Shown: positions 21,235-60,663 of the stretch, in pieces
Position numbering within the stretch: the stretch's first letter is position 1
Layout: every line of letters starts with the position of its first letter
NCBI RefSeq assembly: GCF_003143755.1
Contig: NZ_QFRI01000001.1
Coordinates: 682,001 to 746,000 of the forward strand
Length of the DNA stretch: 64,000 nucleotides
DNA from: Algibacter marinivivus
GTDB taxonomy: Bacteria; Bacteroidota; Bacteroidia; Flavobacteriales; Flavobacteriaceae
Direction of reading: 5' to 3'
Position numbers and translations under genes: made by a program
The notes under the pieces: generated by a model
What the model saw: the letters and a program-made list of their open reading frames with translations, nothing else
What the model was told of the DNA's origin: nothing
The model's database searches: none

Positions 21235-21389
21235 GGGCGTTACCACAAGGGTCGGGCTTTCCACTATATCTTTTGTTTTTTGTCATTCCTACAAAGGCAG
21301 AAATCCACAATCTAGTTATAGACAATCATAAAAAGCAGTTTATGCTTTCATAAAAAAAAACAAAAGGATGCCGTTTCAATCCCTAACGC
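21235..21389 (+). repeat. Dispersed GCGTTA-ended element, copy 3 (enlarged)
   Basis: A 155-bp copy starting GGGCGTTACCACAAGGGTCG and ending CAATCCCTAACGC. Its centre differs from the other copies: an inner inverted repeat (ATCTTTTGTTTTTT near 21269 with AAAAAACAAAAGGAT near 21356-21370) encloses a degenerate ATTCCTGC-type hairpin. It fills most of the 21230-21447 gap. Confidence 0.8.
21281..21306. repeat. Degenerate ATTCCTGC-type hairpin inside copy 3
   Basis: TGTCATTCCTACAAAGGCAG followed by AAATCC resembles a common flavobacterial intergenic hairpin (GTCATTCCTGC..GCAGGAATCC), with mismatches. Related, better-preserved hairpins are at 47226 and 60672. Confidence 0.5.
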
Positions 21390-21447
21390 AATTTATAGTT
21401 TCAATTTAAAATCAAATACTTACTTTTATGTTTTAGTTTGAAATTAA

Positions 21448-51954: not shown

Positions 51955-54090
51955 TTAAAACTTCAGAGTTGCTCCAACCAAAAAGTTTGTTGTTGCTTGC
52001 GGGTAGTAACCAGCAAAATAACCTGTAGTGGTTCCAGTAGGGCTTGTGTTGTCATCAAAATCAAACGACCCAAAATAACCGTTAGATACATATTTCTTGT
52101 TAAAAATATTATTTACCAATCCAGATAACACAATAGATTTAAACAGTTTATTAGGTTTTATTTCATAATTAATATTAAAATCGTTTACAAAATAGCTTTC
52201 TAGTATTGATTCTTTGTTATCAGTATTTCCCATAAACTGTTCACCAACATACTTACTTAATAAAGACAATTGTAAACGCTCCGCAGGAAAGAAATTAAGG
52301 GCATTACCAATAACTAATTCAGGCGAAAATGAAATATTAGTATTTCCTAAATCAACAACTTCTCCATTTATTGAAGATGAGAAATCTTGATTTTTATTAC
52401 TACTTAAAGCAATATTCGTTGATGTACTAAATACTTTTGAAAATTGAATATTAGCATCAATTTCTAAACCTAATCTATAACTCTTACCACTTGTAGCTCT
52501 TATTGGGCTTCCCACATCATCCAACTCACCTGTTAACACCAATTGGTTTTGGTAAAACATATAATAGATATTTGTATTTACGCTAGCTTTTTTACTATTG
52601 TAGCGCCAACCCAATTCAATATCATTAAGCGTTTCATTTTCGGTAACACCACCTTCAAAATCATCACGATTTGGCTCTCTATTTGCTCTAGCAAAAGAGG
52701 CATAAAAACTATTAAAATCGCAATGTTTATAGGTTAAACCAATTTTAGGGTTAAAAAAACTAAAGTTAGCATCTGTAACAAACTCTGTTAAATTAGAATT
52801 TATACCGTTAGTTTTATAGCTCACAAATCTACCTTGTAAATCAACAAACCCAGTAACTTTTTCAGCTAATTTAAACGTTGCTTTTGAAAATATACTAAAA
52901 TCATTTTTCGTAGCATCTCCTTCATAATAACGGTCTCTAATGTTAGTATTTGGTGCTAAATCACTACCCCAAATAACTTCTCCAAAATGATCCCCATCAT
53001 AAGAGCTATAAGACAACCCAGAGATAATCTCTAAAGTATTTTGCTTATAAGTTACGTTAGCATTAAGTACATAAAAATTGTTGTCTAACCATCGTCTAAC
53101 TATAACATCAGAATCATCTTCAATTAAATTATCAAAATCTGCAGCTGATTCTTCTGGCTTGTACTGTTCAAAATAACCTTTTCCTTTTGTATAATTTAAA
53201 CCTAAGTTAGTAGACCAATTATTATTTAAACGCTCATTCCAATGCAATTGATAATGGTCTTGCCAATAATTATCTGTTTCATTTTCATAAGTATATGGAT
53301 TTTGACGACGATCTTCCTTTAATTGATCTGCCGTTAATCCAAACCAAGACTGATACGTTCTTTCAACATTACCAAACGTTAAAGCTTTAATTAATGTATT
53401 ATCATCTTTATAAATTCCTTGAAGAAAATATGATTTTAAGTCTGTAAACGCTCTATCAACATAACCATCAGAATCAATTTTTGAAAAACGTCCTGAAATT
53501 TCAAAATGGTCGTTTAACAATCCTGTACTTAATTTTACAGTATGCTTTCTTGTTCCGAAACTACCAAAGCTGTTTGCAATTTCTCCTGAAGCCTCTTCAG
53601 AAAAAGCATCAGTTAATAAATTCAAACTAGCACCAAAAGCACCCGAGCCATTGGTTGATGTCCCAACACCACGTTGTAATTGTAAGCTTTCAGTTGAGGA
53701 AGCAAAATCTCCTAAATTCACCCAAAATGTCCCTTGACTTTCGGGGTCGTTATACGGAATTCCGTTGATAGTAACATTTACTCGTGTAGCATCTGTACCA
53801 CGAACTCTAATCCCTGTATAACCAACTCCTGCACCAGCATCACTAGTTGTAACGACAGATGGTAAAAAGTTTAACAATACTGGAATGTCTTGCCCTAAAT
53901 TACGTTTAGCTAATTCTTCTTTAGAAACGTTTGAGTGTGTAATTGGAGAATCGGCATCTACACGAACCGCTTTAACTAAAACTTCGTCTAGTTTTTCTGT
54001 TTTAGTTGAATCTTGTACTTTTTGATTTTGTTGTGCATGAGCACTGACTGACAACACTAAGAGTGTTAAAAAAAGAAAAATGTTTTTCAT
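51955..54090 (-). CDS. TonB-dependent outer-membrane receptor (probable thiamine uptake)
   Basis: A 711-residue outer-membrane transporter. Signal peptide about 1-19 (SAHAQ), TonB box region TKTEKLDEVLVKAVR (about 30-45), the plug (residues about 50-165: LGQDIPVLLNFLPSVVTTSDAGAGVGYTGIRVRGTDATRVNVTINGIPYNDPESQGTFWVNL) and a 22-strand barrel ending GATLKF. A TPP riboswitch sits in its leader, so thiamine or a precursor is the likely ligand, in line with the TPP-controlled receptors known in Bacteroidota. No SusD partner follows. Confidence 0.92.
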   Translation of the reverse strand: MKNIFLFLTLLVLSVSAHAQQNQKVQDSTKTEKLDEVLVKAVRVDADSPITHSNVSKEELAKRNLGQDIPVLLNFLPSVVTTSDAGAGVGYTGIRVRGTDATRVNVTINGIPYNDPESQGTFWVNLGDFASSTESLQLQRGVGTSTNGSGAFGASLNLLTDAFSEEASGEIANSFGSFGTRKHTVKLSTGLLNDHFEISGRFSKIDSDGYVDRAFTDLKSYFLQGIYKDDNTLIKALTFGNVERTYQSWFGLTADQLKEDRRQNPYTYENETDNYWQDHYQLHWNERLNNNWSTNLGLNYTKGKGYFEQYKPEESAADFDNLIEDDSDVIVRRWLDNNFYVLNANVTYKQNTLEIISGLSYSSYDGDHFGEVIWGSDLAPNTNIRDRYYEGDATKNDFSIFSKATFKLAEKVTGFVDLQGRFVSYKTNGINSNLTEFVTDANFSFFNPKIGLTYKHCDFNSFYASFARANREPNRDDFEGGVTENETLNDIELGWRYNSKKASVNTNIYYMFYQNQLVLTGELDDVGSPIRATSGKSYRLGLEIDANIQFSKVFSTSTNIALSSNKNQDFSSSINGEVVDLGNTNISFSPELVIGNALNFFPAERLQLSLLSKYVGEQFMGNTDNKESILESYFVNDFNINYEIKPNKLFKSIVLSGLVNNIFNKKYVSNGYFGSFDFDDNTSPTGTTTGYFAGYYPQATTNFLVGATLKF

Positions 54091-54272
54091 TACGATTATG
54101 CTTATAATCGAATAAAAAGAGGTAATTATTCTTAGTTATTAATAAATTAAATTTTGAGCGTTCAACTTGTACAAAATCATATTGTTAACTTTAATATTCA
54201 TTAAATCTTTAATATTAAACAAATTAAGATTTAGAAATAAAAACCAACATTGATGACCTTATCGCACTCGCT

Positions 54273-54293
54273 AAAAATGTCCAGTGGACATTT
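54273..54293 (-). other. Hairpin downstream of the TPP aptamer
   Basis: AAAATGTCC and GGACATTTT form a perfect 9-bp stem with a 3-base loop. It lies just 3' of the riboswitch aptamer on the minus strand and could be the expression platform (terminator-like, with T's only within the stem). Since similar hairpins are common in flavobacteria it may instead be a dispersed repeat. Confidence 0.4.
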
Positions 54294-54295
54294 TC

Positions 54296-54384
54296 TTTAC
54301 GCTCGCTTCCTAAACAGCATTACCTGTTCTAGGTTCAATGGGTATGATCTCAGCCGATAATAGGCACCCCTTTTTTGAGAACGC
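54296..54384 (-). promoter_or_regulatory. TPP riboswitch (THI element)
   Basis: On the minus strand the conserved parts of the thiamine-pyrophosphate aptamer appear in order: GGGGTGCC (54362-54369), GGCTGAGA (54347-54354), ATACCC, GAACCT and CAGGTAATGCTG (54313-54324), closing with AGGAAG. The only region over 300 bases without a gene (54091-54435) is explained by it. It is about 205 bases before the receptor start, so high TPP would switch receptor expression off. Confidence 0.92.
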
Positions 54385-54435
54385 TGCAAATGTAAGAACG
54401 AATTACTAAACACGAATTATAAATCTTAGATTTTT

Positions 54436-54843
54436 TTAATCTATATCTGGTTTTTTTCTGTTTGCCTTTTTATCAGAATGTATACGTTTGTTTTTTAGCC
54501 GTTTTCTAATAACAGCTTTTGGTACTTTAGTTGGCTTTCTCTTTTTTGGAACAATCAAAGATGCTTTTATCAACTCCAAAAATCGATCAATTATAATTAC
54601 TTTGTTTTTATGTTGACTTCTACTTTCTCCGCATTGTAAAATCAATACACCATCTTTTGTTAATCTAGTTTGAAGCTTCTCTAGAAGGCGTTCTCTTTGT
54701 TCATCATCAAACACTAAAGATTGTCTCAAATTAAAAGTGAGTTCAACTTTTGAAGAGACTTTATTAACATGCTGTCCGCCACTACCAGAACTTCTAATAG
54801 CTTTAAAAGATAATTCTTGTAATATGGCCTCTTCATCAAACAT
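54436..54843 (-). CDS. arfB: Ribosome-rescue hydrolase ArfB
   Basis: A 135-residue release-factor-like peptidyl-tRNA hydrolase. The catalytic GGQ is at 22-24 in SSGSGGQHVNKVSSKVEL, and the C-terminal 35 residues are a basic tail rich in Lys and Arg (RLKNKRIHSDKKANRKKPD) that enters the empty mRNA channel of stalled ribosomes. Codon-recognition domains of RF1/RF2 are absent, as in ArfB. Its start overlaps the DUF4301 stop by one base. Confidence 0.94.
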   Translation of the reverse strand: MFDEEAILQELSFKAIRSSGSGGQHVNKVSSKVELTFNLRQSLVFDDEQRERLLEKLQTRLTKDGVLILQCGESRSQHKNKVIIIDRFLELIKASLIVPKKRKPTKVPKAVIRKRLKNKRIHSDKKANRKKPDID

Positions 54844-56393
54844 TAAGAAACTTGATGTACAGGTTTTAGTAAGTCGTTTACTGTTTTAACAGGATTAAAA
54901 GTATCTAGTGGTACTTCAACAAAAATAGAGTTCCAATACGCCATACTACCATTCCATAAACCAGGAAGTTCAAGAGCTTGAATATCTACTCCATTTTGAG
55001 TTTTTGTAGTTATAAAAGCTGCTTCAGGATCAACAAACTGGGTTAAATCAAACTTCTCTCCTTTATAATTTTTAACACCACAAACTAAGTCTGTTGGATT
55101 AAAATGTGTTGCTTTATAAACAATGCCTTGTTGATCTCTTTTACCAAAATTAATTTGAGCAAATTCTACAATCTGAAGTGATATATTCCCATCATTGTCT
55201 TTAACCCAAAATGGTCCTCCTCCAGGTTCTCCTTGGTTTTTAACCATTCCGCAAACACGAATAGGTCTGTTAAGCTTTTGTTTTAAATATTCTGTTTTTT
55301 CTTCAAACGAAAATCCTTCAAAGTCAACACTAATAGGAACATTTAATCTGTAACGTAAAAACAAAGCCATCACTTTAAAGTCAGTATCGTCTAAATTACC
55401 TTCGTCTAACTTTTTCAAATATAAAAAGACTTTTTCTTGAGCTTCAATCAGAACACCTGCTAATAATTTTTTGTAATTAGAAACGGCAATGTTTCTGTCA
55501 GAAACCACAATATTATCTATGTTTTTTATGAAGATTATATCGTTATTTAAATCATTTAAATTCTCTAAAAGCGCACCATGTCCTGCGGGTCTGAATAAAA
55601 TTGAACCATCTTCATTTCTAAACACTTTGTCTTTCAATGTTAAAGCAACCGTTTCAGTAGCTTCTTTTTGATAGGAATAGGATACATTAAACTTTGTATT
55701 AGTACTGCTTTCTAATTCCTCTCTTACAGCACTTAATTCCTTTTTAAAATACAAATGGTGCTTTTCTGAAACTGTAAAATGCAGATTTGATTTACCATTT
55801 GAAGAGGCATATAATGTTGATTCAAATAAATGCTCTTCATAAGCTGTTTTTACTTGTTCAGTATATTTGTGAAATGGTAATAATCCTTTTGGTAGAAAAC
55901 TATAATTTAAACCATTTTGATCGAGCATTGTTTTTACAAACTGCACTTGTTTTTCTCCTTCGGGTAAATTTTCAAAATCTGGGTTGCTCTTTTGAATGGT
56001 TGATATAACAGCATCATAAAAAGGGAACTGCTCTAAGTTATTAAAAAAGATTTCTATTAAATTATCATTCTTTCGTTCTGCATATTTTTTAATACTTTCT
56101 TTTAAAGGTTTAAAGTTTTGTAAAAATTGAAATAGAAACTTAAACATTCGAGTTGCTGCACCCGAAGCTGGTACAAATTTAACTATAGATAATCCGTTTT
56201 GTCTGGTATCATATAAATCTATAAATTCTTGTGCCTCTTTATCATCATATTGCTCAATACCTTTCCCTTTGGTAGCTGCCGCCACCAAATCTGAGAAAGA
56301 CATACCGTTTTTCAATCTTGATACTTGGGCGTTAACATCTGCTAAATCAATGCCTTTATTTTTAATTTGTTCTATATCTTTATCTGAAAACAT
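54843..56393 (-). CDS. DUF4301 protein
   Basis: A 516-residue soluble protein matching DUF4301 of Bacteroidota: GIDLADVNAQVSRLKNGMSFSDLVAAATKGKGI near the start, then IVKFVPASGAATRMFKFLFQFL (about 70-91), RPAGHGALLENLNDLNNDIIFIKNIDNIV (about 277-305) and RVCGMVKNQGEPGGGPFW. The latter two resemble nucleotidyl-transferase/UTP-sugar pyrophosphorylase loops, so an activity on sugar nucleotides is conceivable but unproven. It is between the NadR-like kinase (5-base gap) and arfB (1-base overlap). Confidence 0.85.
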   Translation of the reverse strand: MFSDKDIEQIKNKGIDLADVNAQVSRLKNGMSFSDLVAAATKGKGIEQYDDKEAQEFIDLYDTRQNGLSIVKFVPASGAATRMFKFLFQFLQNFKPLKESIKKYAERKNDNLIEIFFNNLEQFPFYDAVISTIQKSNPDFENLPEGEKQVQFVKTMLDQNGLNYSFLPKGLLPFHKYTEQVKTAYEEHLFESTLYASSNGKSNLHFTVSEKHHLYFKKELSAVREELESSTNTKFNVSYSYQKEATETVALTLKDKVFRNEDGSILFRPAGHGALLENLNDLNNDIIFIKNIDNIVVSDRNIAVSNYKKLLAGVLIEAQEKVFLYLKKLDEGNLDDTDFKVMALFLRYRLNVPISVDFEGFSFEEKTEYLKQKLNRPIRVCGMVKNQGEPGGGPFWVKDNDGNISLQIVEFAQINFGKRDQQGIVYKATHFNPTDLVCGVKNYKGEKFDLTQFVDPEAAFITTKTQNGVDIQALELPGLWNGSMAYWNSIFVEVPLDTFNPVKTVNDLLKPVHQVS

Positions 56394-56398
56394 CCTCT

Positions 56399-56968
56399 TT
56401 ATTCTTTAGAATTTAATAGTTTATCAATATACTTTACCGCAGTTTCTAAACGAGTTTTTTTATCACCTTTTAATAGTACAAAAGGTCTTTTATATTTTAT
56501 AAGTGCATCTTGAAAAGCATCAAACATTTCTTGTCTGTGCTCTGGTTTATCACGCAAATCATCAGCTTCCCAAGGCGTATCAATATAGGTCAAAAAATAC
56601 AAATCGTATGTATTTTCTATAGCATACTTTTCAAGAATTGGGTCGCAACTTCCTAAATAATAAGCTTCAGAATATACTTTGGTTTCCAACAAATCCGTAT
56701 CACAAATTAACACCGTATCTGTCTTTTGTGCTAATTCATTTTCTATTTTCATTTGACCCTCAGCTATAGGAAGTAAATCATCTGGCTCGCAAGTTTTACG
56801 TTCATTATTCCATTTATCTTGAAGATACTCACGCGCATACTCTGGCACCCAAACAGAATTATAATAACGTGCCAATTGTCTTGACAAGGTTGTTTTTCCA
56901 GTAGATTCGGGACCGAACAAAACTACTTTTAAGCAGTTTGCAGGTTGTTGCTTATATTTTTCTTCCAT
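56399..56968 (-). CDS. NadR-like P-loop kinase
   Basis: A 189-residue kinase. Walker A is GPESTGKTT at 19-27 and the acidic base region is LICDTDLLETKVYSEAYY. Together with VWVPEYAREYL and DLYFLTYIDTPWEADDLRD this matches the ribosylnicotinamide-kinase domain of NadR. Beside a PnuC-family transporter, such a kinase would trap the imported nucleoside. Given the thiamine-linked neighbours it could instead phosphorylate thiamine or a precursor. The start overlaps the transporter gene by 40 bases. Confidence 0.85.
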   Translation of the reverse strand: MEEKYKQQPANCLKVVLFGPESTGKTTLSRQLARYYNSVWVPEYAREYLQDKWNNERKTCEPDDLLPIAEGQMKIENELAQKTDTVLICDTDLLETKVYSEAYYLGSCDPILEKYAIENTYDLYFLTYIDTPWEADDLRDKPEHRQEMFDAFQDALIKYKRPFVLLKGDKKTRLETAVKYIDKLLNSKE

Positions 56969-57561
56969 GCTAAATAGCCAAAAACGGCAATAAATGTAAA
57001 TCCTAAATATTGTAAACTTGTAAATGTAAATCCTTTATAAAAGTATAGAGGTACAGAAATAATGTTTCCTATAATCCAGAAAATCCAATTTTCAAGTTTT
57101 CGTCTTGCCATAAGCCACATACCTACAAAAAATATAGCTGTAGTTATGGTATCTACATAAGCAACCCAACTCGTCCATTTATCAAAACTTTGGTAAACTA
57201 AGTAAACAAATAATAGTGTTACTAAAAATATGGCTATACTTATCCTTTTTTCGTTGAATGTTGTTGTTGAAATTGGTGTAACCTGGAAATTGTCAACTTT
57301 TTTCGTCCAAATATACCATCCGTAAATACTCATTATAAAGTAATACCCATTAATCATCATATCACCTAACAACTCCCATTTAAGCAATAAGTACACAAAA
57401 ATAATTGTACTTACCATACCCGTTGGAAATACTAGCACTTTATTTTGTTTTGAAAACCAAACCGATAGAAAACCAAAAATCACAGCAACTATCTCTAGAA
57501 TAATATCTGTGGTTTCATATGCGGCATATTGCCCAAAGAAAAAATCAAAAATGGGGTTCAT
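56929..57561 (-). CDS. PnuC-family vitamin transporter (NR or thiamine; PnuT candidate)
   Basis: A 210-residue inner-membrane protein with seven to eight hydrophobic helices. The motifs FPTGMVSTIIFVYLLLKWELLGDMMINGYYFIMSIYGWYIW and WIIGNIISVPLYFYKGF are characteristic of PnuC-type facilitators, which import nicotinamide riboside, or in the PnuT branch thiamine, with trapping by a kinase. It overlaps the thiamine-binding protein gene by 17 bases and the kinase gene by 40, so all three are one operon. The neighbours favour thiamine. Confidence 0.92.
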   Translation of the reverse strand: MNPIFDFFFGQYAAYETTDIILEIVAVIFGFLSVWFSKQNKVLVFPTGMVSTIIFVYLLLKWELLGDMMINGYYFIMSIYGWYIWTKKVDNFQVTPISTTTFNEKRISIAIFLVTLLFVYLVYQSFDKWTSWVAYVDTITTAIFFVGMWLMARRKLENWIFWIIGNIISVPLYFYKGFTFTSLQYLGFTFIAVFGYLAWKKNISNNLQTA

Positions 57562-57805
57562 AATTGCTTCTATTTGTTTTTACAAGCTTCATTGTTAATA
57601 CACAAATCTCTTGATTTTCAAATGAATTTTTAATTGTTTCATTCAGAAAAGGCATCAACTCATCATAATTACCAAAAATTTGAGTACTCAAAGGGTTTTC
57701 TAAAACAGTAAATTTAGAATCTCGTAATGCTTTAATAAAATCTATAACATGTTTTTCAAAATCATCCTGTAGAGGAGAAAGGGTTAAATCTACTGATATT
57801 TCCAT
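57545..57805 (-). CDS. Thiamine-binding protein (YkoF/MTH1187 family)
   Basis: An 86-residue protein matching the small thiamine-binding-domain family: EISVDLTLSPLQDDFEKHVIDFIKALRDSKFTVLENPLSTQIFGNYDELMPFLNE. In B. subtilis YkoF this ferredoxin-like domain binds thiamine in the cytoplasm. It has no signal peptide. It is the first gene of the PnuC-kinase-DUF4301-arfB operon and is the best clue to its substrate. Confidence 0.8.
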   Translation of the reverse strand: MEISVDLTLSPLQDDFEKHVIDFIKALRDSKFTVLENPLSTQIFGNYDELMPFLNETIKNSFENQEICVLTMKLVKTNRSNYEPHF

Positions 57806-57863: not shown

Positions 57864-58589
57864 TTACTCTCGCAAATTGTCAAAAAATGATTCATCTTCT
57901 TCAAAAGCAGTACCTATTACAACTAAATCTGCGCCAGCATTATAAGCATTATCTAATTCAACCTTACTTCTAATACCGCCGCCAACTATCAAAGGTATAT
58001 CCAATTCTTGCTTAACGTAACTAATGATTTTTTGAGTTAATGGCGTTTTAGCACCACTTCCAGCCTCCAAATATATAAGCTTCATACCTAATAACTGTCC
58101 TGCTTTTGCTGTATCAACTATAATCTGAATATTTTTTCTAGACAAAGGCTTAGTGTTTGTAACTTTCTCCACTGCAGTTATATTACCACTTTCAATTAAA
58201 ACATAACCTGTAGGAAGTATTTCAAGTTGCGTTTTAGTAAGTTTAGATACAGCTTCAACGTGCTTCCCAATTAAATAATCTGGATGCCTCCCAGACAACA
58301 ATGACAAAAATAATAGCGCATCTGCTTCACCAGTAATTTGAGTAATATCTCCAGGGAATAAAACAATAGGCAAATTTGTATGTTTCTTTATTTCAGACAC
58401 AACATTATCTGTTGTACCTTCATCAACAATACTGCCTCCAACAAAAATATGAGTGACAATAGATTTGTTTACTTTATCTATAAAACGATGAGTGTTTTCA
58501 ATTGAAAACTTATCAGGATCAATTAATACTGCTAATAACTTTTCGCCTTTACCAATGGTATCTTGTATGTTTTTATAAATAGAACCCAT
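57864..58589 (-). CDS. Geranylgeranylglyceryl phosphate synthase-like (bacterial group II) protein
   Basis: A 241-residue TIM-barrel prenyltransferase. Motifs: VLIDPDKF near 22-29, HIFVGGSIVDEG, IVLFPGDITQI, IYLEAGSGAKTPL and the C-terminal phosphate-binding VGGGIRSK and IGTAFEED. These fit the GGGPS/PcrB superfamily that couples a prenyl diphosphate to glycerol-1-phosphate, the first committed step of archaeal ether lipids. Group II members occur in Bacteroidota. It directly abuts the phosphopantetheinyl transferase gene. Confidence 0.9.
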   Translation of the reverse strand: MGSIYKNIQDTIGKGEKLLAVLIDPDKFSIENTHRFIDKVNKSIVTHIFVGGSIVDEGTTDNVVSEIKKHTNLPIVLFPGDITQITGEADALLFLSLLSGRHPDYLIGKHVEAVSKLTKTQLEILPTGYVLIESGNITAVEKVTNTKPLSRKNIQIIVDTAKAGQLLGMKLIYLEAGSGAKTPLTQKIISYVKQELDIPLIVGGGIRSKVELDNAYNAGADLVVIGTAFEEDESFFDNLRE

Positions 58590-59216
58590 TTAAGCTATAG
58601 CGTAAGCACATGTAAATCCTTCAAACTGTAAAAAATGAATATTGTATCTAAATTTTTTCTCTTCATAATCAATCCAAGCTACGGTTTCTTCATCAGAAAT
58701 TTCAAAAGGAATCACCAAACAATGCTGTTTAAAACTTAATCCTGGAGTTGCAAAAAGTTTATACAACGATTCTTTAACACACCAAATGGTGGTTAGTTTT
58801 TTCACATAATCTTTTGCAGCTTCATTTAAATAATCAAACTCATAATCAATAAATTTATGAGCTATAATAGAAATTTTATCTCGTTGCTTTTCAATATCAA
58901 TTCCAACAATCAAATCACTTACAATTATCGAAGAGAAGTTGAAAGAATGAGTAATAGAAATGTGCTTCCCATCTTTTAAATGTGGCTTCCCGTTTTCATC
59001 ATAAAATAAATCAGCATCAGTATATCCAAATTCATGTAGCAAATGACGAACGCTTAAAAATCCACGTTTGTGCAATTCACTTTTCATTCCTAAAACACGC
59101 TCTAAAGCAACCGGTTTCAAATCAACTTTAGCCATTAAATCATCGTAAGATTCTGTAATCTTCCAGATTTTAACAGTAGTTTGTGAATTTGGAGTAATAG
59201 TTTTATATAAAGGCAT
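58590..59216 (-). CDS. 4'-phosphopantetheinyl transferase superfamily protein
   Basis: A 208-residue enzyme of the Sfp/AcpT type. The Mg-binding motif VGIDIEKQRDKI and the WCVKESLYKLF motif are both in place, preceded by the KPHLKDGKHISITHSF block that binds CoA. It modifies carrier proteins of fatty acid, polyketide or peptide synthesis. There is no synthase in the window. Its stop is next to the GGGPS start, so the two are co-transcribed. Confidence 0.93.
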   Translation of the reverse strand: MPLYKTITPNSQTTVKIWKITESYDDLMAKVDLKPVALERVLGMKSELHKRGFLSVRHLLHEFGYTDADLFYDENGKPHLKDGKHISITHSFNFSSIIVSDLIVGIDIEKQRDKISIIAHKFIDYEFDYLNEAAKDYVKKLTTIWCVKESLYKLFATPGLSFKQHCLVIPFEISDEETVAWIDYEEKKFRYNIHFLQFEGFTCAYAIA

Positions 59217-59239
59217 TTAGTATTCTAAAAGTTAATAGT

Positions 59240-59247
59240 TATCTTTG
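59240..59247 (+). promoter_or_regulatory. Promoter -7 element for ahcY
   Basis: TATCTTTG followed by CACC matches TAnnTTTG. It sits 100 bases before the ahcY start, leaving a leader in which I see no clear SAH riboswitch. Confidence 0.65.
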
Positions 59248-59346
59248 CACCGCCTAAGGCAAATTAAAGAATTTGATTAGCGAATTTAACCAAATTAAGT
59301 ACTAATCACAATCAAGTTTAGGTTTTAAATAAAAAGAAAAATTACT

Positions 59347-60663
59347 ATGAGTACAAAAACAATTCCTTACGTAGCTAGCAAAGTAAAAGACATCTCTCTT
59401 GCAGATTGGGGGCGAAAAGAAATAGAATTAGCCGAAGCTGAAATGCCAGGTTTAATGAGTCTTCGTGAAGAATATAAAAACGAGCAACCTTTAAAAGGGG
59501 CACGTATTGCAGGATGTTTACACATGACTATCCAAACTGCTGTGTTAATTGAAACATTACAAGCTTTAGGTGCAGAAGTAACTTGGAGTTCTTGTAATAT
59601 ATTCTCAACACAAGATCAAGCTGCTGCTGCAATAGCTGCTGCTGGAACGTCTGTTTACGCTTGGAAAGACATGACTGAAGAAGAATTTGATTGGTGTATT
59701 GAACAAACTCTATTTTTTGGAGAAGACAGACAACCATTAAATATGATTCTTGATGATGGTGGAGATTTAACCAACATGGTTTTAGACAAATACCCAGAAT
59801 TAGCTGCAGGAATTAACGGTTTATCTGAAGAAACAACAACAGGTGTTCACAGATTATATGAGCGTGTAAAAAACGGAACATTACCAATGCCTGCTATTAA
59901 CGTTAACGATTCTGTAACAAAATCTAAATTCGATAATAAATACGGATGTAAAGAATCAGCTGTTGATGCAATCAGAAGAGCTACAGATATTATGTTAGCC
60001 GGTAAACGCGTAACTGTTTGTGGTTATGGCGATGTTGGAAAAGGTACTGCAGCTTCTTTCAAGGGTGCTGGAAGTATTGTAACTGTTACAGAAATCGATC
60101 CTATTTGTGCGCTTCAAGCTGCAATGGATGGTTTTGAAGTTAAAAAACTAGAAACTGTTATTGGCAACACAGATATTGTAATTACAACTACAGGAAATAA
60201 AGATATCGTACAAGGACGTCATTTTGAAGCTTTAAAAGACAAAGCTATTGTTTGTAATATTGGGCATTTTGATAACGAAATTGATATGGCTTGGTTAAAC
60301 AAAAATCACGGGCATACAAAAAACACTATCAAGCCTCAAGTAGATAAATACACAGTAAATGGTAAAGATATCATTATACTTGCCGAAGGGCGTTTAGTAA
60401 ACTTAGGTTGTGCAACAGGTCACCCAAGTTTTGTAATGAGTAACTCGTTTACAAACCAAACTTTAGCACAAATAGAGCTTTGGAATAATGCAGATGCTTA
60501 CAAAAACGAAGTGTACATGCTTCCAAAAGCATTAGATGAAAAGGTAGCAAAATTACACTTAGCTAAAATTGGTGTAGAACTTACAGAGCTTCGAGAGGAT
60601 CAAGCAAGTTACATTGGTGTAACTGTTAATGGACCTTATAAGCCAGAGCACTACAGATATTAA
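59347..60663 (+). CDS. ahcY: Adenosylhomocysteinase
   Basis: A 438-residue NAD-dependent enzyme that splits S-adenosylhomocysteine into adenosine and homocysteine. The NAD motif [18 protein letters not shown] is near 226-243, and the substrate-binding [20 protein letters not shown] and HFDNEIDM are present. The C-terminal [11 protein letters not shown] carries the conserved Lys and Tyr that reach the partner subunit. Length is typical. It is a single gene with promoter and terminator. Confidence 0.98.

Follow-up and report, generated by a model that had tools for sequence, protein, structure and literature searches.

A TPP riboswitch-linked locus of Algibacter marinivivus predicted to import thiamine and to trap it with a NadR-fold kinase

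Analysis of a 64,000-nucleotide stretch of the Algibacter marinivivus genome (contig NZ_QFRI01000001.1, positions 682,001 to 746,000; this whole stretch is referred to as the window) revealed a locus combining a thiamine pyrophosphate (TPP) riboswitch and the gene of a TonB-dependent receptor with genes encoding a Pnu-family transporter and a stand-alone NadR-fold kinase, the latter predicted to convert thiamine to thiamine monophosphate (TMP). The features of the locus are:

51955-54090, minus strand: TonB-dependent receptor (Omr1/OMthi kind) with a predicted role in taking thiamine across the outer membrane (PF00593, 79.9 bits; PF07715, 42.9 bits)
54274-54294, minus strand: perfect hairpin (10 bp) with five T in a row at its end, four of these in the 3' arm; an inverted repeat that lies at the 3' border of the aptamer match
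54290-54381, minus strand: TPP riboswitch aptamer (THI element; RF00059, 36.4 bits, E 1.2e-5 in 431 bases, model positions 1-105)
54387-54394, minus strand: TACATTTG, -7 promoter element of the Bacteroidota type (TAnnTTTG), just 5' of the aptamer
54436-54843, minus strand: ArfB ribosome-rescue hydrolase (NF006718, 132 bits; PF00472)
54843-56393, minus strand: DUF4301 protein, predicted UDPGP-type nucleotidyltransferase fold (PF14134, 699 bits)
56399-56968, minus strand: stand-alone P-loop kinase of the NadR fold, predicted to phosphorylate thiamine to TMP (PF13521 (AAA_28), 147 bits)
56929-57561, minus strand: Pnu-family transporter, predicted PnuT (thiamine; PF04973, 179.3 bits, cut-off 27.3)
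57545-57805, minus strand: small thiamine-binding-type protein (PF01910-like; PF01910, 23.0 bits, cut-off 24.9)

In the list of open reading frames of the window, the six frames of note are all on the minus strand, and the order of transcription is PF01910-like protein, PnuC, kinase, DUF4301, ArfB, TPP aptamer and TonB receptor. The genes of the PF01910-like protein and PnuC overlap by 17 bases and those of PnuC and the kinase by 40 bases; these overlaps, the gene positions and strand, and the location of DUF4301 and arfB between the two halves had been given in a preliminary description of this DNA and are borne out by the reading frames. About 2.0 kb separate the kinase gene from the aptamer downstream of it, and the riboswitch is directly 5' of the receptor gene.

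The kinase has 189 residues and contains PF13521 alone, with no NMNAT (adenylyltransferase) domain; TIGR01526 matched with 111 bits against a cut-off of 341 and covers only model positions 162-320 of 325. The structural model (pLDDT 95.8) has its best PDB matches in the NadR kinase domain (8x7f_A, TM score 0.83 by query length), and the ribosylnicotinamide kinase domain fold is present. By family the kinase is not a thiamine pyrophosphokinase (TPK), since it belongs to PF13521 and lacks the PF04263 catalytic domain, nor is it ThiK-like, having the P-loop NadR fold and not the APH-type fold of ThiK. The nearest named loci are from Algibacter, with a kinase identity of 92%. In the kinase tree, five of six NadR domains form a group (support 87/82) to which none of the 54 stand-alone kinases belongs; the truncated kinase of L113 was left out of this tree and of alignments A2 and A3, and the NadR of L099 was left out of A2. 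Differences in residues between the kinase and NadR are small (A45, Q72, P142) and were not used as proof. Four genomes (G010, G093, G136, and G218) encode, in addition to the kinase, a NadR-length protein that has a C-terminal kinase domain and that lies beside a PnuC in three of these genomes; the NMNAT part of this protein was confirmed by profile only in G010.

Regarding thiamine metabolism, ThiL is encoded over cut-off in the source genome (99.89% complete) at C1:775532-776524, about 30 kb beyond the end of the window, while profile searches of the genome detected no TPK (PF04263), no ThiC and no ThiE-family (TMP-TENI) match, and no NadR-like protein beyond the kinase save one 23-bit partial match. 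From the presence of ThiL without ThiC, ThiE, or TPK it follows that TPP would be formed from TMP via ThiL, with the conversion of thiamine to TMP as the missing step. Judged by its gene content, the bacterium seems unable to make vitamin B1.

The same gene pattern was compared in 80 relatives and in 149 genomes of the class Bacteroidia, taking as ThiE any PF02581 match of more than 100 bits or, in a looser definition, any PF02581 match over cut-off. Among the 80 relatives, the kinase was detected in 67, TPK in 12, ThiL over cut-off in 76, ThiC in 18, and PF02581 above 100 bits in 25; the 62 of the 80 that are without ThiC therefore probably depend on outside vitamin B1. Relatives that have ThiL and lack both ThiE and TPK encode the kinase in 47 of 48 cases, and the remaining relatives in 20 of 32. 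The 13 relatives without the kinase comprise seven with TPK, four more with ThiE, one 0.3-Mb genome and one unexplained genome (G071). Class-wide, where 144 of the 149 genomes have ThiL over cut-off, the kinase is present in 65 of the 70 genomes with ThiL and without ThiE or TPK, versus nine of the other 79, G178 being counted here as NadR; this genome has a true NadR that was first taken for the kinase, and it is still included among the 75 class carriers cited below and in the counts with one genome per family (24/26 vs. 3/37). Since related genomes are not independent, a within-family test was run, which is a better guide than whole-sample Fisher p-values, in which kinship is left uncorrected: nine families vary in the kinase, eight of them as predicted (Cochran-Mantel-Haenszel p 1.1e-4; the exception is f42, with G182), the corresponding result before the reclassification of G178 being seven of eight families (p 4.7e-4). 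Kinase and TPK occur together in only two of the 149 class genomes and five of the 80 relatives.

The preliminary description had placed a TPP aptamer ahead of the receptor, and this element is real, although its Rfam match falls below the gathering score (36.4 vs. 54.3 bits). A whole-genome search returned it with E 2.2e-5 as the sole TPP element found in the genome. Alignment of the window aptamer with 34 of 40 short-loop aptamers from relatives (35 sequences, 104 columns) gave 42 invariant columns, and the P4/P5 helix covaries, with 16 cells changed on both sides vs. 3.9 in shuffles and 98% of cells paired; a slide of +3 columns had a similar covariation score (0.156 vs. 0.148) yet only 41% of its cells paired. 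Misalignment of the GGGG block in eight rows gives eight unpaired cells at columns 28/59, and P1 as drawn by Rfam is unpaired in the window aptamer. In 72 of 80 named loci of relatives, a match to the TPP core pattern follows the kinase on its strand; five of the other eight loci end at most 2.8 kb from the kinase, and three (L128, L147, and L157) have no match in 10 kb. Because of this recurrence and of the covariation in P4/P5, the aptamer is not a chance match, and with its full-length match, conserved core and covarying helix it is a genuine TPP aptamer, for which TPP binding is predicted.

Upstream of the aptamer lies the motif TAnnTTTG, which we take to be the Bacteroidota -7 promoter consensus; it occurs at most 60 nt upstream of the aptamer GGGGTG in 70 of the 72 relatives vs. 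4.9% of random 60-mers. The number of -33/-7 promoters in a window-wide scan did not exceed that in shuffles (23 vs. 26.2 expected), and the promoter claim is therefore drawn solely from the aptamer-anchored comparison. Given the recurrence of the motif before the aptamer, the receptor gene is very likely transcribed from a promoter of its own, and the kinase genes of the window are very likely outside riboswitch control. The hairpin at 54274-54294 may be a terminator, an expression platform or a dispersed repeat; it is part of a longer element at 54262-54295 (AAAATGTCC/GGACATTTTT with flanking GCGAG repeats), which has a single copy in the window and follows the aptamer in several other genera and not in others.

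Linkage of the kinase to a TPP riboswitch at a distance of at most 15 kb was found in 51 of the 67 kinase-carrying relatives, and in 49 of these the kinase is followed by the riboswitch on its own strand, in nine of them within 70 nt; of the other 16, three have no riboswitch match, 12 have the riboswitch on another contig and one is G032, considered below. In the class sample at least 27 of the 75 carriers show this linkage among the matches listed, and in all 27 the riboswitch follows the kinase on its strand; searches over 40 genomes used stricter RNA filters and linkage in the class is possibly undercounted. DUF4301 and ArfB are variably present between kinase and riboswitch across the relatives, and since their presence varies the two halves of the locus form a single conserved neighbourhood. 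The kinase and the small binding protein keep their place upstream of the riboswitch in five relatives (L081-L085) that have PnuC at another site. In the class relative G224 one TPP riboswitch (56.3 bits) is directly before PnuC-kinase and a second is before the receptor. In G026, PnuC is replaced by a distant PnuC behind a TPP-receptor unit and the kinase is kept; in G025 there is no kinase, and a TPP-receptor-PnuC-TPK unit is found in its place.

The NCBIfam label for the PnuC protein is nicotinamide riboside (NR) transporter (100.6 bits, cut-off 42.45). In a tree of PnuC proteins, where NR-type is defined by a NadR neighbour or is the E. coli PnuC, the window protein is in a clade of 17 (support 96/95) with four PnuC genes directly behind TPP riboswitches and no NR-type member; four of the five NR-type proteins form a separate clade (100/98) and the TPK-linked PnuCs a clade of their own. 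The preliminary description had proposed that a thiamine role be checked against such a tree and against the gene content of the genome; in these checks the window PnuC does not group with the NR type, and the searches for thiC, thiE-family, TPK, and NadR-like genes gave the result stated above.

The TonB-dependent receptor has a full-length identity of 40% to its counterpart in a TonB-PnuC-TPK operon of the class relative L263, an operon that a TPP riboswitch precedes; as a TPP-controlled TonB receptor homologous to those of TPP-TonB-PnuT-TPK operons it is of the Omr1/OMthi kind.

Regarding the remaining genes, the PF01910-like protein is a single domain of 86 residues with a weak NCBIfam match (MTH1187/TIGR00106, 18.4 bits, cut-off 54.7) and 2ibo as best PDB match (E 0.019). 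The earlier term YkoF-type is thus loose; the protein is probably a thiamine binder, a role we infer. The slot near the kinase (at most 2.6 kb) contains a PF01910-like protein in 18 of 54 loci, a TenI-like gene in eight and neither in 28. In the loci L240, L241, L247-L251, and L269, the TenI-like gene lies between PcrB and PnuC-kinase, a position taken in Flavobacteriales by the small thiamine-binding protein. ArfB is a passenger gene, missing from many related clusters. DUF4301 is found with the kinase in 65 of the 80 named loci, almost always as the next gene after it, and the two are fused in one reading frame in L056, L065, L178, and L179, which represent several genera; open frames of 738 and 736 in G143 and G179 are probably the same fusion. 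The DUF4301 model (pLDDT 84.5) has its best PDB matches in UDP-GlcNAc and UDP-glucose pyrophosphorylases (E 4.3e-7), but with a TM score of 0.42 and a large root-mean-square deviation. Among 54 kinase loci compared, DUF4301 was near the kinase only in the family of the window and in f2, and none was seen in loci from outside the order. A fusion of the kinase to an aldose 1-epimerase domain was observed at L253:5163-6608 (G136). Adjoining the cluster (57864-60663) are ahcY, a phosphopantetheinyl transferase gene and PcrB, which flank the thiamine cluster in many relatives class-wide and whose functions look unrelated. Elsewhere in the window, a Flavo-1 RNA (RF01705, 52.9 bits) is present at 21246-21394; compared with the model, its loop carries a long insert.

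Taken together, the locus is probably a thiamine import and trapping cluster, consisting of a TPP-regulated receptor, PnuT and a NadR-fold kinase making TMP, which ThiL would convert to TPP. When TPP is scarce, the riboswitch would permit synthesis of the TonB receptor and thiamine would be carried across the outer membrane; facilitated diffusion through PnuT would then bring thiamine across the inner membrane, phosphorylation to TMP by the NadR-fold kinase would trap it, and ThiL would complete TPP, which would close the riboswitch loop. In this scheme the substrate of the kinase, the substrate and mode of transport and the direction of regulation are what we infer. It is also likely, if with slightly less assurance, that NadR-type kinases without NMNAT are a thiamine kinase family of their own, which together with PnuT and ThiL is the principal way of making TPP from vitamin B1 in roughly half of the Bacteroidia sampled (74/149), in place of the TPK-type enzyme that Bacteroides uses, and which is masked by the names NadR or AAA ATPase.

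Several observations weigh against this interpretation. Regarding the kinase itself, the residues of the catalytic core are common to it and NadR, no residue proves specificity, and the tree does not resolve the true NadR of L252 from the kinases. On the NR side of the weak deepest split of the PnuC tree (68/83) are six PnuCs linked to the kinase and the one linked to a riboswitch in G224, and for this reason specificity cannot be read from the PnuC sequence alone. Since the riboswitch of the window is downstream of the kinase, it should regulate the receptor only; in G032 the two are 235 kb apart, and among the matches listed 48 of the 75 class carriers show no proximity of kinase and riboswitch, these being far apart, on another contig or without a listed riboswitch. 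No TMP-making enzyme was found in the source genome, where APH-type ThiK, ThiN and YjbQ were not searched for. Exceptions to the gene pattern are the relative G071, which has ThiL, no ThiE or TPK and no kinase (83% complete), five class genomes of the same constitution that lack the kinase (G112, G167, G176, G182, and G210), and carriers outside this category (nine class genomes and 20 relatives). Four families (f1, f21, f56, and f66) vary in ThiE/TPK status and are constant for the kinase, and the looser PF02581 definition weakens the contrast to 47/50 vs. 27/99.

The routine annotation would make the PnuC-kinase pair a system of NR uptake and phosphorylation, with the thiamine receptor as a mere neighbour, and the NCBIfam name of PnuC, the NadR families and structures closest to the kinase, the common catalytic core and the class PnuCs on the NR side of the weak split are all in keeping with it. 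This is nevertheless unlikely, as the kinase has no NMNAT domain, follows ThiL, ThiE, and TPK in its distribution and keeps its linkage to TPP riboswitches in genomes that have PnuC at another site, and a riboswitch directly precedes PnuC-kinase in G224; moreover, the window PnuC is found with TPP-controlled PnuC genes and apart from all five NR-type ones, and some genomes have a separate NadR-like protein. The preliminary description had assigned the pair to thiamine or one of its precursors. The comparison of genomes favours thiamine over NR, and the precursor is disfavoured: uptake of hydroxymethylpyrimidine (HMP) or of the thiazole precursor was rejected because the source genome, like most carriers (66 of the 75 class carriers), lacks ThiE.

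It had likewise left open whether the NadR-fold enzyme is a thiamine kinase or a pyrophosphokinase, and here the conversion of thiamine to TMP is favoured. That the enzyme makes TPP from thiamine directly, replacing TPK, would agree with the largely mutually exclusive occurrence of the two; ThiL, however, is over cut-off in nearly all genomes (144 of the 149 in the class, 76 of the 80 relatives), including genomes without another detected source of TMP, and would be idle in a one-step route, and P-loop kinases of the NadR fold normally transfer a single phosphate, which leaves a pyrophosphokinase rather improbable and a little more so than NR phosphorylation. A third reading, in which the kinase and DUF4301 as a predicted nucleotidyltransferase make a nucleotide-linked compound and the thiamine linkage is secondary, draws on the frequent adjacency of the two genes, their fusion in several genera and the resemblance of the DUF4301 model to UDP-sugar pyrophosphorylases. 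It is very improbable, given that among the 54 loci DUF4301 accompanies the kinase only in two families and is not seen outside the order, where the riboswitch linkage persists.

The receptor and PnuT of the proposed thiamine cluster belong to known kinds, while the assignment of a NadR-fold kinase to thiamine, a predicted activity, appears to be new: none was found in the portions considered of open-licence texts on thiamine kinases, PnuT/PnuC, NadR, and thiamine-requiring Flavobacteria, and an earlier prediction is possible. Genomes of marine Flavobacteriales and Cytophagales with Omr1 and ThiL and without biosynthesis genes have been read as salvage (PMC12236431), and expression of omr1/pnuC in Bacteroidetes has been described in marine B1 cycling (PMC12442306). 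An enzyme converting thiamine to TMP in such genomes is named in none of the sections of the former that were considered, and in these surveys, as far as the sections considered extend, the step between uptake and ThiL has no assigned enzyme (PMC12236431; PMC12442306). If the present assignment is true, a large group of genomes would gain a complete, testable salvage route, many NadR/PnuC annotations would shift from vitamin B3 to B1 and the prediction of B1 auxotrophy in these bacteria would improve.

Among characterized systems, Tnr3 is a TPK-type enzyme, NR uptake by PnuC and NadR works by metabolic trapping, and E. coli ThiK (YcfN) converts thiamine to TMP, on which ThiL then acts. The predicted reaction of the kinase is that of ThiK, the two differing in that the kinase belongs to PF13521 and ThiK has the APH fold. 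With PnuC-NadR, as presented in the sections considered, the locus has in common the transporter family and the kinase fold (PMC7221760), and it differs in the missing NMNAT domain, the linkage to a TPP riboswitch and a pattern that tracks thiamine genes. The thiamine acquisition genes of Bacteroides thetaiotaomicron include the TPP-linked receptor OMthi, PnuT, and Tnr3, and common to both systems, on the sections considered, are a TPP-riboswitch-linked TonB receptor, a Pnu inner-membrane transporter and a vitamin-phosphorylating enzyme (PMC5613172). Operons of the Bacteroides layout with a PF04263 gene were also found in L108, L263, and L264, whereas in the window the predicted partner of the transporter is not Tnr3 but a NadR-fold kinase that would need ThiL, and the riboswitch is before the receptor only.

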